IMG/VR virus record: IMGVR_UViG_3300019889_000027
Coordinates: 1-32,419 of that record
Direction: 5' to 3' (one strand)
Length of the DNA stretch: 32,419 nucleotides
Origin: a virus
Positions 24,691-32,419 of the stretch are shown piece after piece. Position numbers and translations under genes: made by a program. Below the pieces are notes generated by a model. That model had not been told where the DNA came from and made no database searches. It saw only the letters and a list, made by a program, of their open reading frames with translations. Each line of letters begins with the position of its first letter. Position 1 is the stretch's first letter.

Positions 24691-25077
24691 TCACGAAATC
24701 TTTTCGCCGAGCCAAGCGACGAATTGCTCTTCAGTCACTGTTCCGCTATCGGCAACCCCGAGCATGATATCGATTACTGCTTGTTCATCGATCTCGACAA
24801 CGACGCCATTGATCTCCAGAAACGTGGCACCCACGATCCAACCAGTGCGCTTGTTGCCGTCGACAAATCCGTGATTGTTGGCAATCCCAAACACGTACGC
24901 GGCCGCCAACTCCAGTAGGCTGCCTGGTTGGGAATAGTGAAACAGATTTTGAGGGCGGGCCAGCCCTGATTCAATAAGCGCATTCTCTCGAATGCCTGGC
25001 AGCCCGCCATGTTCTGCAATCTGAGCGTCGTGGATGGCCAGGACAACGTCGTAGCTAATCCACTCCGGTTCGATCAT
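24691..25077 (-). CDS. doc: Doc-type (Fic fold) toxin
   Basis: 128 residues. The Fic/Doc motif H69-G-F-V-D-G-N-K-R-T (HGFVDGNKRTG) is preceded by the usual Doc N-terminus (ISYDVVLAIHDAQIAEHGGLPGIRENALIESGLARPQNLFHY). The lysine in GNKR is the Doc form; P1 Doc phosphorylates EF-Tu. It acts in the cytoplasm and is neutralised by the AbrB-like antitoxin encoded upstream, whose stop overlaps its start (ATGA). Convergent to the early operon. The short Fic domain lacks an inhibitory helix. Confidence 0.85.
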   Translation of the reverse strand: MIEPEWISYDVVLAIHDAQIAEHGGLPGIRENALIESGLARPQNLFHYSQPGSLLELAAAYVFGIANNHGFVDGNKRTGWIVGATFLEINGVVVEIDEQAVIDIMLGVADSGTVTEEQFVAWLGEKIS

Positions 25078-25298
25078 TTCGCTAAGGCGTGAAGGGCGTT
25101 TCTATAGCGCTTCATTACGGATTCGGCGGCCTTCATCTGGCGCTCGAAAACGGGGTTATACGGGGTGAGGCGATACCCTTCCGGAGATTCGGTCAGGTAT
25201 AGGGCATCCCCATCGTGAATTTTCAACCGGTCAGTAACCTCCCTCGGAAGGGTAACCCCGGTTGAATTGCCGACTGCTCTGGCTTTTAAAGTGATCAT
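25074..25298 (-). CDS. AbrB/MazE-type antitoxin of the Doc locus
   Basis: 74 residues from the ATG at 25298 (GGGAGGACC upstream supports it; the frame opens earlier, at 25400). MITLKARAVGNSTGVTLPREVTDRLKIHDGDALYLTESPEGYRLTPY is a SpoVT-AbrB swapped-hairpin DNA-binding domain. The helical C-terminus FERQMKAAESVMKRYRNALHALAK would clamp the toxin. AbrB-like antitoxin first, Doc second, with overlapping codons, is a common pairing. Likely autoregulates its promoter in 25299-25400, where TATACACATGTTATA is a weak inverted repeat. Confidence 0.8.
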   Translation of the reverse strand: MITLKARAVGNSTGVTLPREVTDRLKIHDGDALYLTESPEGYRLTPYNPVFERQMKAAESVMKRYRNALHALAK

Positions 25299-25552
25299 AA
25301 TCGGTCCTCCCGGCTCGTTGACCGAATCCGAATATACACATGTTATAACACGAAACCTGCCGTTTTGCTCAGAAATTTGCAGGGAAAGTGCGCTTACCAA
25401 TTAGGAAGATTCTTGTGACCGTGTCTTTAGGCGGCGGCCACGGCCCGCAGCGCCGCGCTGGACTAGTGTTCAGGAATCACTCCGAAAGTAGTCCACCTCA
25501 GTAGTCCGCTCTCAAATCGGACAACTGAAACTCGCGAAGGGAAAGGTTCACT

Positions 25553-25720
25553 ATGGCGCTCATACTTTTGATTCTTGTGATCCTGCTGCTCGGCGGCGGC
25601 GGTGGTTACTATGGCTACAACCAGTGGGGCTACGGTGGCGGGATCGGTGGAGGCCTCGGGCTCATCCTCCTGATCGTGCTGCTTGCTTATTTGCTCGGCG
25701 TGTTCCCGCACCGCTTATAG
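25553..25720 (+). CDS. Small two-segment membrane peptide, DUF3309-like
   Basis: 55 residues: MALILLILVILLLGGGGGYYG, a Tyr/Gly turn (YNQWGYGGGIGGG), then LGLILLIVLLAYLLGVF. This matches the DUF3309 pattern of small membrane peptides of unknown role, common in Proteobacteria and Acidobacteria. RBS GGGAAAGG upstream. Upstream (25401-25552) there is only a short direct repeat AGTAGTCC. Immediately followed by an iteron cluster. Confidence 0.65.
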   Translation: MALILLILVILLLGGGGGYYGYNQWGYGGGIGGGLGLILLIVLLAYLLGVFPHRL

Positions 25721-25730
25721 CGTGCGCGCT

Positions 25731-25766
25731 GGGCTCCCACCTGGGCGCCTGGCTGGACGTCCAGGG
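25731..25766. repeat. 12-bp iterons, remote cluster (3 units)
   Basis: GGGCTCCC at 25731, GGGCGCCT at 25743 and GGACGTCC at 25755 are in exact 12-bp register and share the GGRCGYCC core of the par-locus clusters 5 kb to the right. They lie between the DUF3309-like gene and the leftward 26048 gene, outside any accepted coding region. Confidence 0.6.
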
Positions 25767-25793
25767 ATTGAATCGATATATGCTCTGTTCCGC

Positions 25794-26048
25794 TCACTTG
25801 CCCGCCTCCCGCTCCGCATCGCCCTGGATGGCGTCGAGAATATCAAGAGCCATTTGCAGCCCGTCAAATCGACCGTTAAGCAGTGACTTGTCACGCTCTG
25901 ATTCACCGCCATACAGCCACCTATACTGTTGCTGCTTTTCCGTTATGCGCTCAACCGCCGTCGCCAGCTTCCGCTTGACGGTGGCAATCTCTGCCATAAA
26001 CGAGGCAGTCTGATTGCTTCTTTGCATCGCTTTTTCTGCTTCGGTCAC
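25794..26048 (-). CDS. Hypothetical accessory protein
   Basis: 84 residues, GTG start with GGGGAG upstream. Helical and charged (EKAMQRSNQTASFMAEIATVKRKLATAVERITEKQQQYRWLYGGESERDKSLLNG...). Ends AEREAGK. Likely co-transcribed with the 26276 gene upstream. No family recognised. Confidence 0.5.
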   Translation of the reverse strand: MTEAEKAMQRSNQTASFMAEIATVKRKLATAVERITEKQQQYRWLYGGESERDKSLLNGRFDGLQMALDILDAIQGDAEREAGK

Positions 26049-26063
26049 CTTGCCGACTCCCCT

Positions 26064-26276
26064 CTACGCTGCCTGCGCCCGGAGCTCGGCGAGCTTGCAG
26101 CGGTCCCATTCAACGCCCTGGCGGTACAGCGCGGTGTCCCAGCCCTTCGACGCGGCGAACGCCACCAGCTTTTCGTTTACGGCGAGCGATCGCTCGTAAA
26201 ACTCGATGCCGGGCGTCAGGTCTTCGATCGCGTCCAGCTCGTCTATCAGTGCTCTGTATTCGGCTTGGTCGGGCAT
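26064..26276 (-). CDS. Hypothetical accessory protein
   Basis: 70 residues from the ATG at 26276 (MPDQAEYRALIDELDAIEDLTPGIEFYERSLAVNEKLVAFAASKGWD...). The frame opens 13 codons earlier, and the true start is unsure because neither has a clear RBS. All-helical, acidic N-terminal half. Unknown role. Confidence 0.5.
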   Translation of the reverse strand: MPDQAEYRALIDELDAIEDLTPGIEFYERSLAVNEKLVAFAASKGWDTALYRQGVEWDRCKLAELRAQAA

Positions 26277-26294
26277 GACCACATGATTGCTTTT

Positions 26295-26327
26295 ATGACG
26301 GCATGACAGCAACATTTTGACGTCAAA
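26295..26327. promoter_or_regulatory. Operator-like sites upstream of the leftward accessory genes
   Basis: ATGACGGCATGACAGCAA (26295-26312) matches 14 of 18 positions of the TTGACGGCATGCCGTCAA palindrome at 15366 and 15776. TTTGACGTCAAA (26316-26327) is a 12-bp perfect palindrome. Together they may place these genes under the same regulator. Confidence 0.35.
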
Positions 26328-26421
26328 GACGTACTATTACGCCAAACTACGGGAGTGTTTTAAGTGGATCGATGACGGCGAGCGCGAAGATTTGGCGTCA
26401 TTCGTCAAAAAGTTTACATAA
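26317..26421 (+). CDS. Possible 34-residue ORF or gene remnant
   Basis: TTG-initiated frame reading ...YYYAKLRECFKWIDDGEREDLASFVKKFT then stop. The composition looks protein-like and could be the end of a broken gene, but there is no RBS and no homologue in mind. It ends within TTTACATAATGT, a 12-mer also found at the start of the 15419 gene. Confidence 0.25.
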   Translation: MTSKTYYYAKLRECFKWIDDGEREDLASFVKKFT

Positions 26422-26464
26422 TGTTATTTATCGGAACCTGTGGCGAGCGGGCAAAACGCCTGGG

Positions 26465-26483
26465 ATGTAGTGGCTACACCGCG
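26465..26483 (+). repeat. 19-bp direct repeat, left copy
   Basis: ATGTAGTGGCTACACCGCG, identical to 27195-27213, spanning the antitoxin stop codon (...A-V-stop on the minus strand). It includes the inverted repeat TGTAG/CTACA. Confidence 0.8.
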
Positions 26484-26773
26484 TGTTTGGCCGGCTTCAG
26501 TTCGACTACCAGCCGGCGGCCGACAACCGCGGCGGCGCGCTGTAGCGTGTCCAGTTGGATGGACGGTTTCTGGGGATTCAACAGCCGGTCGACCTGCGTC
26601 CGGCTAGTGTGCATCAGCTTCGCCATCTTGTTCTTGCTGATGTGCTGTTCTCTCATCGCTGCCGTAATCTGCCAAGCGATTACACGCGCGTTGGCGATCG
26701 CGTCCACCTCTTCGAAAATACCCTCTTCTTTCAGGAAATCGTCGAACGAGGATCCAATGTTCTTGCTGCTCAT
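26474..26773 (-). CDS. XRE-family HTH antitoxin
   Basis: 99 residues. The helix-turn-helix ITAAMREQHISKNKMAKLMHTSRTQVDRLLNPQKPSIQLDTLQRAAAVVGRRLVVEL is a standard XRE domain as in HigA-type antitoxins. The N-terminal 35 residues are the likely toxin-binding part. Its start overlaps the toxin stop (26770-26773). Toxin-first order matches HigBA. It would repress the shared promoter through the TGTAG/CTACA sequence upstream of the toxin. Confidence 0.8.
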   Translation of the reverse strand: MSSKNIGSSFDDFLKEEGIFEEVDAIANARVIAWQITAAMREQHISKNKMAKLMHTSRTQVDRLLNPQKPSIQLDTLQRAAAVVGRRLVVELKPAKHAV

Positions 26774-27126
26774 CTCTCCATCTCCCTCTTGCGTTTCAGC
26801 GCCAAATCAATTTCCGCGACTGGGGCTTTCTGTGACTTCTTCACAAAGCCGTTGAGTAGGACCATCTTGCCGTCGCGAATGCAGAAGATCACCCTCGTGA
26901 TTCCGTTTTTGATGTTGCTCCGTACTTCCCAAAGCCCGCCCCCGCCGAGCGGACGACAAGCCGGCATCCCAATCGGCCAGCCGCGCTCTACGGTGGCTAT
27001 ATCCGCACCGATGATCTTTCGATCTGCAGGGTCGAGCGATTTAAGCCACTCTCGTACCGGCTCCGCTCCAGTCGCAGCCGACCGGAAGAAGGCGGCTGGA
27101 ACTTTTTTAGGTGCGGCGCGTGGCAA
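26770..27126 (-). CDS. RelE/HigB-superfamily toxin, phage Gp49-like
   Basis: About 118 residues from a TTG at 27126, preceded by AGG; a farther TTG at 27153 is the alternative. VPAAFFRSAATGAEPVREWLKSLDPADRKIIGADIATVERGWPIGMPACRPLGGGGLWEVRSNIKNGITRVIFCIRDGKMVLLNGFVKKSQKAP is the Gp49-like toxin signature, ending with the K-KKSQ-TP-type box. It should cut ribosome-associated mRNA and be paired with the XRE antitoxin. Confidence 0.8.
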   Translation of the reverse strand: MPRAAPKKVPAAFFRSAATGAEPVREWLKSLDPADRKIIGADIATVERGWPIGMPACRPLGGGGLWEVRSNIKNGITRVIFCIRDGKMVLLNGFVKKSQKAPVAEIDLALKRKREMER

Positions 27127-27194
27127 GTAATACCTATAATCCCTACATGCCAACTGTACCGTGCATGGTGCAGGGGGTCAAGCAGAAAATGCAA

Positions 27195-27213
27195 ATGTAG
27201 TGGCTACACCGCG
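27195..27213 (+). repeat. 19-bp direct repeat, right copy
   Basis: Second exact copy of the 26465 repeat, 730 bp away, upstream of the toxin promoter and spanning the stop codon of the 27455 gene (...A-V-stop). Confidence 0.8.
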
Positions 27214-27455
27214 GGTCCGCGCGCCAATTCCAGATAGGTATCGAGCGCCAGACGGGCGGCATTTCGCGTCGACATCCCTGGTGGATCCTCGCGATCGCCT
27301 CCGTAGCATGAGCACTCTTTCAACTGGTGCGCGGCAGAGCCGGCGACCATTCGCACTCCGCATTCGCGATGGAGCCTTTGCCCGTTGAGGCTTGCCGGGC
27401 TTGTTTCGTCGCCCGGCCCGATCGGCTCCTCGCAATATAAACAAGCTTCATCCAT
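27204..27455 (-). CDS. Small Cys-rich hypothetical protein
   Basis: 83 residues. CLYCEEPIGPGDETSPASLNGQRLHRECGVRMVAGSAAHQLKECSCYGGDREDPPGMSTRNAARLAL has a CxxC, HxxC and CxC zinc-binding look. This conserved pattern (CxYC-EPI-PGD ... LHRECG-R---GS-AHQ---CSCYGG) recurs in hypothetical proteins of Proteobacteria and Acidobacteria. Its last codons lie within the 19-bp repeat. Function unknown. Confidence 0.6.
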   Translation of the reverse strand: MDEACLYCEEPIGPGDETSPASLNGQRLHRECGVRMVAGSAAHQLKECSCYGGDREDPPGMSTRNAARLALDTYLELARGPAV

Positions 27456-27547
27456 GTCGTATCAACCCGTATCAGCCTTTCGGCTCGCCAACGCCTTCGC
27501 CGTGGCTGTTCGACTAGGGTAATCCCGATCGGTCGATTATGTGCCGC

Positions 27548-27570
27548 GTATATACATTTTATGTATATAC
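27548..27570. promoter_or_regulatory. BrnTA operator palindrome
   Basis: GTATATACAT and ATGTATATAC are perfect 10-bp arms with a TTT spacer, 8 bases upstream of the brnT GTG. The location and symmetry are as expected for the autorepressor site of a toxin-antitoxin promoter. Confidence 0.65.
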
Positions 27571-27577
27571 TTGAGTT

Positions 27578-27877
27578 GTGGCTAGTCGAAAGTTTCAGTG
27601 GGACCAAGCGAACACCGAGCACATTGCGCCGCACGCGATTACGCCACAGGAAGTTAGAGAAGTGTTCAGCCGTATTTATGCGGAAGTGCCCACAGATCCG
27701 GTTGACGGCGAGGATCGCTATTGGGCTATTGGAACGACGGCGAGAGGTCGCCATCTGACGATTGCCTTCACGGAACGCGGCGAATACACCCGTCCGATTA
27801 CCGGATGGGAAATGACCCCGGAGGAATTAGAAATCTATGTCGAAGAACTCTACAGACGACTTGACCTTCCCGAATGA
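27578..27877 (+). CDS. brnT: BrnT-type ribonuclease toxin
   Basis: 99 residues, GTG start. FQWDQANTEHIAPHAITPQEVREVFSRI ... RYWAIGTTARGRHLTIAFTERGEYTRPITGWEMTPEE is the BrnT pattern (F-WD--N--HI ... R---G----GR-L-V-FT-RG). BrnT is a RelE-fold ribonuclease that blocks translation. The cognate antitoxin start overlaps its 3' end by 41 bases, which couples their synthesis. Confidence 0.85.
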   Translation: MASRKFQWDQANTEHIAPHAITPQEVREVFSRIYAEVPTDPVDGEDRYWAIGTTARGRHLTIAFTERGEYTRPITGWEMTPEELEIYVEELYRRLDLPE

Positions 27878-28211
27878 GAAGGCAGAGGCCGATTGGTACC
27901 ACAGTCCGGAAGGACGAGCTCGCTCGCTACGGACGCTCACGAAAGCTGTCCGCGATCGCAAGGTTGTGCTCCGCGATGGTTCCCAGATGAAGCTCACCGA
28001 TCGCGCCGCAATCGAACAGTTACTGGCCGAGGCGCGCGCCGCAGCGACACAGGCTATCTCCTTGCGCCTGCCGGCGAGCGACATCGAGGCGGCGAAGCGT
28101 CTGGCCGAAGATACGGGCAAGGGCTATCAAACCATCCTGAAGGAGATTATCCACAAAGGCCTGACGAACCCCGGCGCGCGAGCCAGAAAAACAAAGACGG
28201 CCGCGGGCTAA
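27837..28211 (+). CDS. CopG-type antitoxin next to BrnT
   Basis: 124 residues. The N-terminal acidic/aromatic patch (DLTFPNEKAEADWYHSPEGRARS) is the toxin-binding part of CopG antitoxins of BrnT loci. The C-terminal ISLRLPASDIEAAKRLAEDTGKGYQTILKEIIHKGL is an RHH DNA-binding domain. It should bind the 27548-27570 palindrome. The end (KTKTAAG) is repeated at the end of the next antitoxin. Confidence 0.75.
   Translation: MSKNSTDDLTFPNEKAEADWYHSPEGRARSLRTLTKAVRDRKVVLRDGSQMKLTDRAAIEQLLAEARAAATQAISLRLPASDIEAAKRLAEDTGKGYQTILKEIIHKGLTNPGARARKTKTAAG
28196..28210 (+). repeat. 15-bp repeat at the CopG antitoxin stop
   Basis: GACGGCCGCGGGCTA, exactly repeated at 28547-28561 at the end of the BrnA-type antitoxin. 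Both copies cover the last codons and stop. Confidence 0.7.
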
Positions 28212-28220
28212 AACTAGGCA

Positions 28221-28562
28221 GTGGTCGGCAAATACACTCGAATGGAAAAGAAGCCTACACGCGACAGTATGACCAGAGCCGAGAAATTTGAGTTCGTCCG
28301 GTCCTTGCCCAACGAAGACGACAAAATCGACTATAGTGATGCGCCGGCCAGATTGCCGCCGGAAGTGTGGGCAAAAGGCGTGGTCGGCAAATACTATCGG
28401 CCGCTCAAAAAACAGGTGACCTGCCGGATCGACGCCGATGTCCTCGTTTGGCTCAAGGCGAAGGGGGCCGGCTACCTCACACAGGTCAATACCATCTTGC
28501 GTGCGCAAATGGAGCGCGAGCGGAAGCCACGCAAGGGCAAGTCGCGGACGGCCGCGGGCTAG
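28221..28562 (+). CDS. BrnA-type antitoxin, second antitoxin in the locus
   Basis: 113 residues from the GTG at 28221 (an ATG at 28242 is the alternative). LPPEVWAKGVVGKYYRPLKKQVTCRIDADVLVWLKAKGAGYLTQVNTILRAQME is the BrnA_antitoxin domain, normally the immediate partner of BrnT. Here it follows a CopG antitoxin, so one toxin has two candidate antitoxins. A 15-bp segment GTGGTCGGCAAATAC is duplicated inside the gene (28221-28235 and 28380-28394). Confidence 0.75.
   Translation: MVGKYTRMEKKPTRDSMTRAEKFEFVRSLPNEDDKIDYSDAPARLPPEVWAKGVVGKYYRPLKKQVTCRIDADVLVWLKAKGAGYLTQVNTILRAQMERERKPRKGKSRTAAG
28547..28561 (+). repeat. 15-bp repeat at the BrnA antitoxin stop
   Basis: Second copy of the 28196-28210 repeat, 351 bp downstream, bordering the BrnA-type gene. 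Confidence 0.7.
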
Positions 28563-29798: not shown

Positions 29799-30443
29799 CT
29801 ACCCGGGCGGCCTCGTTGGGGGCGCTGTGCCGCCTAACGTCGCCAGTATCATGCTTGCCATTTGCCTTTCTTCGCGGCTGGCATTGGGATCCGCGAGCAC
29901 GGCTCGGTAGTCGTCCAGATTCAGGGCGACATCGTAGTAGTGGTTAATCGGTGGAAGCGCGCGCCAGGCCGCGGAGTAATTCGTGGCTCGCCGCCTTTCG
30001 CGGGTCTCCGGCCGCCGCGGCCTGGTTTCGCCAGAGGGCGACGTAAGTCGTTCTTGGTAATTCTTCCTATTAAGGCGACCGGACATTTTTGTCCCCTCGG
30101 AGCGGACTGGGCCGGCGCCTGGCGGGTAGGTCTCGACCAGGACGAAATGGTCGCCGTGGCCGGTCCGGGCGACCCGGCGAAGGATACCGAGCGCAAGGAG
30201 CTGGGCCATCCACCGCCGGACGGTGCGCAGATCCACCCCGTAATACTCGGCCGCGCGCTTGTAGCGGAAGAACGTGTGCCCCTTCAGCCACTGCATCCGC
30301 TTGGCGTAAATCAGCATGCGGTAGACCGCTCCCGGAAGCACTTTGCGCCAGGCGTCGAGTATTCCCTTCCCTAGCGGTACGAACGGTACTTGCGGCGCAA
30401 AATTAAGGGCTTGCGCGCCGCCGTTTTCTGATAAGATTTCCAT
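29799..30443 (-). CDS. Winged-helix plasmid replication initiator-like protein
   Basis: 214 residues. PGAVYRMLIYAKRMQWLKGHTFFRYKRAAEYYGVDLRTVRRWMAQLLALGILRRVARTG is a helix-turn-helix/wing module like that in plasmid and phage replication initiators. A basic linker and a C-terminal helix (LDDYRAVLADPNASREERQMASMIL) follow. It heads a leftward operon, divergent from parA, with its leader opposite a strong plus-strand terminator. Probably the plasmid-mode Rep; a transcription factor is the alternative. 29640-29798 holds no gene I can support. Confidence 0.6.
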   Translation of the reverse strand: MEILSENGGAQALNFAPQVPFVPLGKGILDAWRKVLPGAVYRMLIYAKRMQWLKGHTFFRYKRAAEYYGVDLRTVRRWMAQLLALGILRRVARTGHGDHFVLVETYPPGAGPVRSEGTKMSGRLNRKNYQERLTSPSGETRPRRPETRERRRATNYSAAWRALPPINHYYDVALNLDDYRAVLADPNASREERQMASMILATLGGTAPPTRPPG

Positions 30444-30532
30444 GTTGGGTTTGGCCGCCTTTCACCGGCCGACTGCATACACTTCGGGCGCTGCTCTGGT
30501 AGGCCGAGCCCGGGTGGACAGAACGAATTAAG

Positions 30533-30566
30533 CGGCTTAGGTGTTATCAGCACCTAGGCCGTTTTT
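30533..30566 (+). terminator. Strong rho-independent terminator, plus strand
   Basis: CGGC-T-TAGGTG pairs with CACCTA-G-GCCG around TTATCAG, followed by TTTTTAATTT. It lies opposite the Rep leader, 167 bases upstream of parA. No plus-strand gene precedes it, so it may end a short RNA antisense to the Rep leader. Confidence 0.65.
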
Positions 30567-30677
30567 AATTTCAGCTCACAGTATTGTGCTCACTGCCGCA
30601 CAGTATACACCCCAAACAATAGTGCCGAGAATTGTTCTAAGTACTATCGTTTCTTGCGCTTCACTCTCGGTGGTGTT

Positions 30678-30713
30678 AGGCTCCCAAGTGGGCGTCTAAC
30701 GTGACGCCTTGCT
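30678..30713. repeat. 12-bp iterons upstream of parA (3 units)
   Basis: AGGCTCCC at 30678, GGGCGTCT at 30690 and TGACGCCT at 30702, in 12-bp register, match the GGRCGYCC core (6 to 7 of 8 each). They end about 20 bases before the parA ATG, an ideal place for autoregulation. Confidence 0.6.
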
Positions 30714-30733
30714 AATCAAAAACGGGAGCTCAA

Positions 30734-31450
30734 ATGATTGTGGTTGTAGGGGGGATAAAGGGTGGCAGCGGCAAGACTACCGCGGCAACAAACCTCGCCG
30801 TGATGCGCGCCACCAGCGGAGTGGACCTGTTGCTGGTCGACGCCGACGGTGATCAGGAGACAGCTTACGACTTCACCCAGCAGCGCAGCGAGCGCATGGA
30901 TGGCGACGCCGGCTATACGACGATCAAACTCGACGGGGCGGCGGTCCGGACGCAGGTCTTGCGCCTCGCCGACAAATACGAGGACGTGATCATCGACACC
31001 GGCGGCCGGGACAGCACCAGCCAGCGAGCGGCTCTGGGCATCGCCGACCTTCTCCTGGTACCCTTCGTGCCCAGGTCCTTCGATATCTGGACACTGGAAA
31101 AGGTCGCCCAACTCGTCGGCGAAATGCGGCAAGCCAATCTCAAGCTCAAGGCGTGGACGTTCCTGAACCGGGCGGATCCGCGCGGGCAAGAAAACGACCT
31201 GGCTGCCGAGGCGCTTAAGGATGCGCCAGGCCTGGAATTCATCAACGTGTCGGTAGGCACTCGCAAGGCGTTCGGCAACGCCGCGGCCGAGGGCCTGGCT
31301 GTCCACGAGCTCAAGAATCCGGACCCGAAAGCGGTCGAGGAAATATCGGCTTTGTATAGTCATATTTATGGCGTATCCTGGACGTCCGGCGTGACGTCCA
31401 AGGGGGCGTCCAGTCAGGCGTCCACAGGGACACCCAAGGGGGCATTGTAA
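30734..31450 (+). CDS. parA: ParA-family partition ATPase
   Basis: 238 residues, RBS GGGAG. Deviant Walker A KGGSGKTT (about 9-16), LLLVDADGDQETA (about 34-46), and DVIIDTGGRDS (Walker B, about 85-95) define ParA/MinD. There is no N-terminal HTH, so it is the small type that works with a small DNA-binding partner rather than a ParB of the large type. The last 23 residues (from about 216) have four-residue periodicity and coincide with iterons. The downstream RHH gene is the likely adaptor. Confidence 0.9.
   Translation: MIVVVGGIKGGSGKTTAATNLAVMRATSGVDLLLVDADGDQETAYDFTQQRSERMDGDAGYTTIKLDGAAVRTQVLRLADKYEDVIIDTGGRDSTSQRAALGIADLLLVPFVPRSFDIWTLEKVAQLVGEMRQANLKLKAWTFLNRADPRGQENDLAAEALKDAPGLEFINVSVGTRKAFGNAAAEGLAVHELKNPDPKAVEEISALYSHIYGVSWTSGVTSKGASSQASTGTPKGAL
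31380..31439. repeat. 12-bp iterons in the 3' end of parA (5 units)
   Basis: GGACGTCC, TGACGTCC, GGGCGTCC, AGGCGTCC and GGACACCC start at 31380, 31392, 31404, 31416 and 31428, exactly 12 bp apart. They encode the C-terminal TSG-TSK-ASS-AST-TPK repeats of ParA. Confidence 0.75.
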
Positions 31451-31452
31451 AG

Positions 31453-31779
31453 ATGGCACTCACAAGAAAACCAACCAGAACGGCAGACCCGGCGGATATC
31501 AACCGGCTGATTCGGAAAGGTAGGAGCAAGCCGAGCCGAGAGCAAAGGCGCGGGATGCTGAAGATCAGTCTGCGCGTCCCGTTGAGCTGGGTGGATCGAA
31601 TCGATGCGCTTGTCAAAGTGCACGAACCGCCGCCGGTCGATCCCTTGTCGCTCACCAAACCGTTGCCGAAGTACACCCGGCATGACTGGCTGCTCGATGC
31701 GCTTAGGGATAAGCTCGAACGAGAGAAGAGTCAGGGACGGACAGAGTTGAGTCCGACGCCGACGGCCGAGGGGGAATGA
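31453..31779 (+). CDS. RHH-type partition adaptor (ParB-like role)
   Basis: 108 residues, starting 2 bases after the parA stop. The basic N-terminus (RKPTRTADPADINRLIRKGRSKPSREQRR) precedes an RHH-like core: strand GMLKISLRVPLSWVDRIDALVK, a long Pro-rich loop, then helix TRHDWLLDALRDKLERE. Small RHH proteins encoded after small ParAs bind centromere iterons and stimulate the ATPase through a basic N-terminus. The match to that plan is good, but the loop is unusually long. Confidence 0.65.
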   Translation: MALTRKPTRTADPADINRLIRKGRSKPSREQRRGMLKISLRVPLSWVDRIDALVKVHEPPPVDPLSLTKPLPKYTRHDWLLDALRDKLEREKSQGRTELSPTPTAEGE

Positions 31780-32243
31780 TGTTGCGTGTCCCGGACGCCC
31801 AAGTGGACGCCCACGCGGGCGTCCCAATAGAAGTCATCGTCTACGCTCTCTATGCGGGCAGGGAAGCGCCCCAACCGTTTTATATCGGAAAATCACGGCA
31901 ACCAGCAGCACGTCTCAATCAGCATCGCCGTCGATTTGGTGCCGATACGGAAATGAAAGTGTTGCAGCGCCGCTTTGAAGGAGAGAGCGTCGACCAAGCT
32001 GAAGCGCGTTGGATCGCGCACTTTATCAAGAACGGCCATTCCGTACGTAACCTGGCCAAGCTTCCCAGATCGGAGGCACGCACACGACTCACCCTGGATA
32101 TACCGATCGCTCTCCATAGACAGTTGAAATCGAAGAGTGGCCGCAAAGGAGTCGATATTCGTGAAGTTGTGCAATCGTTGATCGAAAAGTGGGTCAGCGA
32201 CCTGGACGCCCACCGTGACGCCCGAAAGGACTCCACTCCATGA
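31776..32243 (+). CDS. GIY-YIG nuclease domain fused to an RHH-like domain
   Basis: 155 residues from the ATG at 31776 (overlap with the previous stop; a second ATG follows at 31779). GIY-YIG elements are VIVYALY (Tyr23), PFYIGKS (Tyr36), RLNQH (Arg46), AEARWI (Glu76) and RNL (Asn92). From about 103, TRLTLDIPIALHRQLKSKSGRKGVDIREVVQSLIEKWV reads as a ribbon-helix-helix. The RHH could direct the nuclease to iterons that lie in its own gene. A third gene of this kind in a par operon is unusual. Confidence 0.75.
   Translation: MMLRVPDAQVDAHAGVPIEVIVYALYAGREAPQPFYIGKSRQPAARLNQHRRRFGADTEMKVLQRRFEGESVDQAEARWIAHFIKNGHSVRNLAKLPRSEARTRLTLDIPIALHRQLKSKSGRKGVDIREVVQSLIEKWVSDLDAHRDARKDSTP
31793..31828. 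repeat. 12-bp iterons in the 5' end of the GIY-YIG gene (3 units)
   Basis: GGACGCCC at 31793, GGACGCCC at 31805 and GGGCGTCC at 31817, in exact 12-bp register and all fitting GGRCGYCC. They encode residues about 6-17 (PDAQ-VDAH-AGVP). Confidence 0.75.
32204..32239. repeat. 12-bp iterons in the 3' end of the GIY-YIG gene (3 units)
   Basis: GGACGCCC at 32204, TGACGCCC at 32216 and the weaker GGACTCCA at 32228 keep the 12-bp register. They encode the last residues (about 143-155) and end just before the next ATG. Confidence 0.65.
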
Positions 32244-32419
32244 GAGGGGCAGGGAACTCAACCGTCCAACTAGCGTTTCGGATCTGGGTAGACGGCAAGA
32301 TGGTGGTCAACGAGAGCCACGCTATCCCCGATCCGGAACTCGAACAGTTCCTGAACAGTTTGGGCGAAAAGCACGTCCGGCTGGTGGCGGACAAAAACTT
32401 CATGTCGGAGATCGAGTTT
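32240..32419 (+). CDS. Hypothetical protein, 3' partial
   Basis: ATG at 32240 overlaps the GIY-YIG stop (ATGA); open to the window edge for 60 residues (FRIWVDGKMVVNESHAIPDPELEQFLNSLGEKHVRLVADKNFMSEIEF). Fourth gene of the par operon. No family recognised from this fragment. Confidence 0.55.
   Translation, partial: MRGAGNSTVQLAFRIWVDGKMVVNESHAIPDPELEQFLNSLGEKHVRLVADKNFMSEIEF

Follow-up and report, generated by a model that had tools for sequence, protein, structure and literature searches.

A putative RHH-guided GIY-YIG endonuclease gene coupled to the type Ib partition operon of a probable phage-plasmid

The partition systems described so far that come closest to the present locus are ParF/ParG of TP228 and parCAB of Myxococcus pMF1. 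Both combine a small ParA lacking an N-terminal DNA-binding domain with a small ParB-like partner, and both, like the locus described here, have short repeats nearby, which in pMF1 are also found away from the locus. The ParB-type protein of pMF1 binds AGATGTCT-type iterons that lie both beside par and at other places on this plasmid, and the pMF1 ParA is reported to be most similar to a Sphingobium ParA (PMC3235114). Among phage-plasmids, KS14, FLC5, and FLC10 of Burkholderia carry a parA whose product is 41%–45% identical to the one described below, followed by a small repressor-like gene; KS14 was isolated as a plasmid prophage (PMC3091744). Nucleases of the GIY-YIG class are also known from phages: free-standing endonucleases of the Seg type are common there and cut at sites distant from their own gene (PMC2988022).

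The window (the whole stretch of DNA analysed, 32,419 bp) is IMGVR_UViG_3300019889_000027, a linear IMG/VR virus fragment whose 5′ end lies inside a tail-sheath gene and whose 3′ end lies inside orf4, the open reading frame (ORF) following giy. Phage genes identified in the record encode the tail sheath, tape measure, baseplate hub and wedge, and endolysin, and an exonuclease VIII-like gene is also present. A toxin–antitoxin cluster of the kind associated with plasmid maintenance occupies 24691–28562, comprising Fic/Doc with a MazE-like partner, a Gp49-like toxin with an HTH partner, a BrnT toxin with a CopG/BrnA-like gene, and one BrnA-family gene. Taken together with a probable Rep/O-like gene and a par operon, this gene content fits a phage that probably persists as a plasmid. 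None of the 43 phages sharing its baseplate gene carries a related parA. The genes and domains at the 3′ end of the record are as follows.

29799–30443, minus strand: probable Rep/O-like HTH replication-initiation gene, divergent from parA (phrog_270, E 5e-4)
30734–31450, plus strand: parA, type Ib/ParF-like ATPase, 238 aa (NF041546 ParA_partition; ParF as best PDB match)
31453–31779, plus strand: orf2, putative small RHH protein of parB type (homologous to what follows parA in relatives)
31776–32243, plus strand: giy, predicted GIY-YIG plus RHH protein, 155 aa (ORF list, Pfam, PHROG, AF2 model, structure searches)
31830–32051, plus strand: predicted GIY-YIG domain of giy, aa 19–92 (Y23, Y36, R46, H50, E76, N92; AF2 and structure matches)
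32082–32204, plus strand: predicted ParG/Arc-like RHH domain of giy, aa 103–143 or thereabouts (PHROG, Pfam, and PDB matches; RHH-only matches in L002, L015, and L116)
32240–32419, plus strand: orf4, partial at the record end (ATGA overlap with giy)

A strong terminator-like hairpin of 16 pairs (30530–30570) lies between the Rep-like gene and parA. Downstream of it the genes are tightly packed, with 2 nt between the parA stop and the orf2 start and ATGA overlaps at both orf2/giy and giy/orf4. ParA has its Walker A motif at residues 9–16 and lacks an N-terminal HTH; it matches NF041546 with E 4.7e-41 and 140.6 bits, below the curated cut-off of 180, and ParF is its best match of solved structure. 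Its database relatives at 55%–62% identity are plasmid-borne and come from Methylobacterium, Methylorubrum, Deinococcus, and Sphingobium, with further relatives in KS14, FLC5, FLC10, and many IMG/VR contigs. The second gene, orf2, aligns to the small gene directly following parA in these relatives, and its family profile matches RHH regions of HicB, Arc, CopG, and NikR, weakly but coherently and over the same region; a fold search with the orf2 model returned nothing useful. By these alignments, orf2 is predicted to be the usual parB of this ParA family, of small RHH type, and the locus reads as a type Ib partition operon: a small ParA, an RHH parB downstream, and repeat sites within the operon. 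The placement of giy as third gene of a partition operon, made in an earlier note on this DNA from the letters alone, is thus borne out, with giy coupled behind parA and orf2.

The giy ORF is intact on the plus strand, with candidate starts at the ATG codons at 31776 and 31779 and an SD-like GAGGGGG just upstream. Its match to PF01541, taken on its own, falls short of the Pfam cut-off of 22.6 bits, scoring 17.1 (E 0.0068), and a PADLOC match to PDC-S14 (E 0.0076) covers the GIY-YIG domain only. In the AF2 model, pLDDT is 70–80 across this domain, and the leading Foldseek matches are UvrC-N and I-TevI, none of them below E 0.001. VIA-align leads with plant Grx-N, I-TevI, PD-T4-3, UvrC, R.Eco29kI, EndoII, and Slx1 at Z 4–7.3; values below 8 are modest, so that the argument for the fold lies in the coherence of the list. 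Y23, Y36, R46, H50, E76, and N92 stand in register with the spacing of the GIY-YIG pattern, and all six are shared with gp2 of Gordonia phage GodonK, which is 36% identical over the domain. These matches support a nuclease-like GIY-YIG domain in the N-terminal part of giy.

The C-terminus matches Arc-like repressors in PHROG, with E 4.3e-4 and 1.3e-3. It also matches Pfam ParG (E 0.078) and, as best PDB match, ParG 1p94 (E 0.12); each match is weak, but they are several and concordant. Matches by tblastn and blastp to the RHH part alone include an Acidisoma ParG and a VapB-type antitoxin. The former at first resembled a linked GIY-RHH fusion but was rejected, since its ORF spans 91 aa between stop codons and contains no GIY-YIG domain. 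The AF2 monomer model has two helices here, at low confidence and with the strand absent, and no sequence similarity was found between orf2 and the giy RHH. Two further statements of the earlier note therefore hold for this protein: that the two Tyr and the Arg, Glu, and Asn are intact (Y23, Y36, R46, E76, N92), and that the C-terminal part is RHH-like.

Short repeats run through the operon. The pattern KGRCGYCY-N4-KGRCGYC, which spans two units of 12 bp, occurs exactly 7 times in 30601–32419, compared with 0.003 in dinucleotide shuffles, and allowing one mismatch raises the count in the par region to 10, compared with 0.05 expected. The iterons (no strand assigned) are located as follows.

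25731–25762: dispersed pair, lying away from the par locus
30678–30709: iterons upstream of parA
31379–31444: about five 12-bp iterons arrayed within the parA 3′ end
31791–31836: three 12-bp iterons that directly follow orf2, within the giy 5′ end
32202–32235: two to three iterons, at the giy 3′ end

Exact pairs include 31793–31823 and 32204–32222, at the two ends of giy. The codon phase of the iterons differs between parA and giy, and thus the repeat is kept at the level of DNA. The iteron-coded stretches correspond to extra protein tails of both products: about 25 aa of ParA, past approximately aa 212, have no counterpart in relatives, and the iteron-coded ends of giy (residues 1–17 and the final four) are of low confidence in the AF2 model. 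Encoded by the array (window 31371–31450), the ParA tail has a repetitive four-residue pattern. The iterons noted at both ends of giy are thus present, and they are found at all operon junctions and at 25731–25762 as well.

Comparison with related loci indicates to which protein these sites may belong. In an unsupervised search for 8-bp palindromes, the one enriched at the par junctions here is GGACGTCC (p 9e-8). At the junctions of four Methylobacterium-type plasmids it is GGATATCC, ranking first in three and second in L107, and at those of KS14, FLC10, L120, and L157 it is TGATATCA, which comes second in L121. For 6-mers in 83 loci, GATATC is the commonest best palindrome (13 at p<0.01), followed by TATATA/ATATAT. 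These p-values are uncorrected, with 64–256 words tried, and the weight of the comparison lies in the recurrence of one word. GAYRTC repeats are seen at the same junctions in L104–L107, L111, L112, L120, L121, L157, and others, with the centre and flanks varying by lineage. In L121, a contig otherwise close to L120, parA and parB are separated by a TnpB-like gene (so named on sequence) at L121:4223–5374, at the junction with the GATATC repeats.

The common form of the site is therefore, on sequence comparison, a GAYRTC palindrome. Relatives lacking giy have equivalent palindromes upstream of parA, where parA meets parB, and behind parB, and the ParB-type protein of pMF1 binds sites of the same shape; hence, the iterons here are most simply read as sites for orf2 acting as ParB, and not as evidence for the target of a nuclease. 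For the same reason, the cluster after orf2 need not have arrived with giy, as it has counterparts in relatives without that gene. The proposal that iterons at its gene ends point to giy as an iteron nuclease is thus not supported, since the site after orf2 exists without giy, dispersed sites are normal for the family, and ParB binds the equivalent repeats of pMF1. Reading the iterons as Rep-origin sites was likewise rejected, relatives having equivalent repeats at the same par junctions. Among the matches listed in an iteron search of viral contigs are loci without a related parA, orf2, or giy.

A GIY-YIG gene beside parA was found in none of approximately 90 related loci by blastp with giy and by scanning over 6,000 ORFs for the GIY-YIG motif. 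PF01541 matched nothing in 21 whole ParA-bearing virus records, although giy itself falls under the cut-off and equally divergent genes may escape. A tblastn search of plasmid records returned no giy homologue linked to parA, and no full-length homologue was found in viral contigs, plasmids, or phages, nor in approximately 100 genomes of one bacterial phylum, reached via a locus in a Bryobacterales MAG. Genome contigs also gave none, in a scan of exact 8-mer peptides that amounts to weak absence. When the GIY query of viral contigs was widened, GodonK was the sole match, and its gp2 is the only comparable GIY-YIG/RHH fusion in the collections searched. The gene (L003/L013:388–1050) is present twice in the phage genome record. 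GodonK carries several GIY-YIG genes but no ParA match. The search for such fusions near parA, which the earlier note had proposed, consequently yielded, in the collections covered, no linked homologue and one fusion in a genome without a ParA match. This is the outcome that the note itself named as refuting its reading, although with a single example the test is weak. With so few homologues, linkage statistics for giy are poor.

The relatives lacking giy do not supply an empty allele, but have a ParA that is about 65% identical at closest and downstream genes that differ. GC3 is 0.58 for giy, 0.77 for parA, and 0.69 for orf2; the value for giy is lower than in most window genes, albeit by a modest gap for one 155-codon gene, with two other window genes as low, and is consistent with later acquisition. 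The absence of giy from related loci, the occurrence of the GodonK fusion without ParA, the lower GC3, and the dissimilarity of orf2 and the giy RHH together favour giy as a more recently incorporated accessory gene rather than a conserved component of partition.

The best explanation at present, advanced tentatively at a probability of about 0.45, is that giy encodes a lineage-specific, RHH-guided GIY-YIG endonuclease of the free-standing homing or competition type, situated in the type Ib par operon of a phage-plasmid. The operon itself would comprise a ParF-like ParA, orf2 as ParB, and GAYRTC-type iterons as operator and centromere sites, with giy taken into its 3′ part as a lineage-specific third gene. 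RHH proteins are obligate dimers; in a giy dimer, two GIY-YIG domains would be brought to one specific site, short and near-palindromic, where their active sites would produce a double-strand break or paired nicks. Expression would come from the operon under the control of ParB, and the protein would most likely be a free-standing nuclease, active in homing or competition, and no core part of the partition machinery. That it dimerises and cuts DNA, at which target and in what role, is inferred. As in free-standing homing endonucleases, giy is a stand-alone phage ORF with a catalytic domain and a DNA-binding module, and a nuclease of this kind would explain its sporadic occurrence. Against this explanation, the two-sided ATGA coupling suggests a settled member of the operon and fits an accessory role in partition equally well.

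Such a role is possible but doubtful. The giy RHH would sit on the iterons of orf2, and the GIY-YIG domain would nick or only contact the DNA, for instance to ease its topology, to resolve multimers, or to tighten repression, in the manner of parC as the third gene of pMF1. Operon coupling, the presence of iterons at all junctions and thus at either end of giy, and the similarity of the giy RHH to ParG, the partner of ParF-type ATPases, argue in its favour, and a type Ib system of three genes offers a precedent, its extra protein enhancing the binding of ParB (PMC3235114). However, giy is missing from the related loci, its RHH shows no sequence similarity to orf2, orf2 alone accounts for the iterons, and cutting the element's own centromere would be harmful unless confined to nicking. 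It is unlikely that the protein is instead a catalytically silent or repurposed GIY-YIG-RHH repressor, such as a phage moron or superinfection regulator: its RHH matches are indeed Arc-like phage repressors, but the six active-site residues are all kept, even in the 36%-identical GodonK protein.

Two readings that take the iterons as the target seem about as improbable. Under one, giy would cleave incoming plasmids or phages bearing the same iterons, a form of competition or incompatibility for which a specific nuclease architecture adjoining partition sites might be suited; yet the same sites occur at five places in its own record and would expose it to self-cutting, the window proteins examined showed no modification gene, and no giy homologues lie near other par loci. 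Under the other, which is given as little credence, giy would recognise the GGACGTCC iterons and nick or cut them under ParB control, leading to multimer resolution, copy control, or the elimination of co-resident elements that share this centromere. Cleavage of the iterons by giy would endanger the element's own DNA. The free-standing endonuclease remains the preferred reading.

Set beside the described systems, the locus shares with pMF1 a third gene and a AGATGTCT-type site, but pMF1 ParC precedes parA and itself binds no DNA, and no nuclease gene has been described for either pMF1 or TP228. KS14 and FLC10 have TGATATCA repeats at the same junctions as here, whereas neither they nor FLC5 have a GIY-YIG gene behind parB. 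Endonucleases of the T4 Seg family resemble giy in joining a GIY-YIG domain to a DNA-binding module and in lying between phage genes in the same orientation; however, their modules are usually of NUMOD/HTH type, while that of giy is a ParG-like RHH. GodonK gp2 likewise has all catalytic residues and a fused Arc-like RHH, but its RHH is N-terminal rather than C-terminal. In the open-access literature searched, neither a GIY-YIG/RHH fusion nor a GIY-YIG nuclease within a partition operon was found, in agreement with the earlier note, which was aware of no described system of this type, and a 2006 survey of the GIY-YIG superfamily covering 765 sequences makes no mention of ribbon or RHH fusions (PMC1564403). 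Fusions of GIY-YIG to RHH domains thus seem to be barely described, and pairing through the RHH would make for a GIY-YIG nuclease that is both compact and palindrome-specific. For the type Ib family, the comparison suggests a testable site rule, a palindromic GAYRTC (GATATC, GATGTC, or GACGTC). The location of giy allows a direct test between a segregation locus with its own sequence-specific nuclease and a landing place for a selfish one. As far as these searches extend, the two parts are each of a known kind, and it is their combination and setting, in a single example, that are new.
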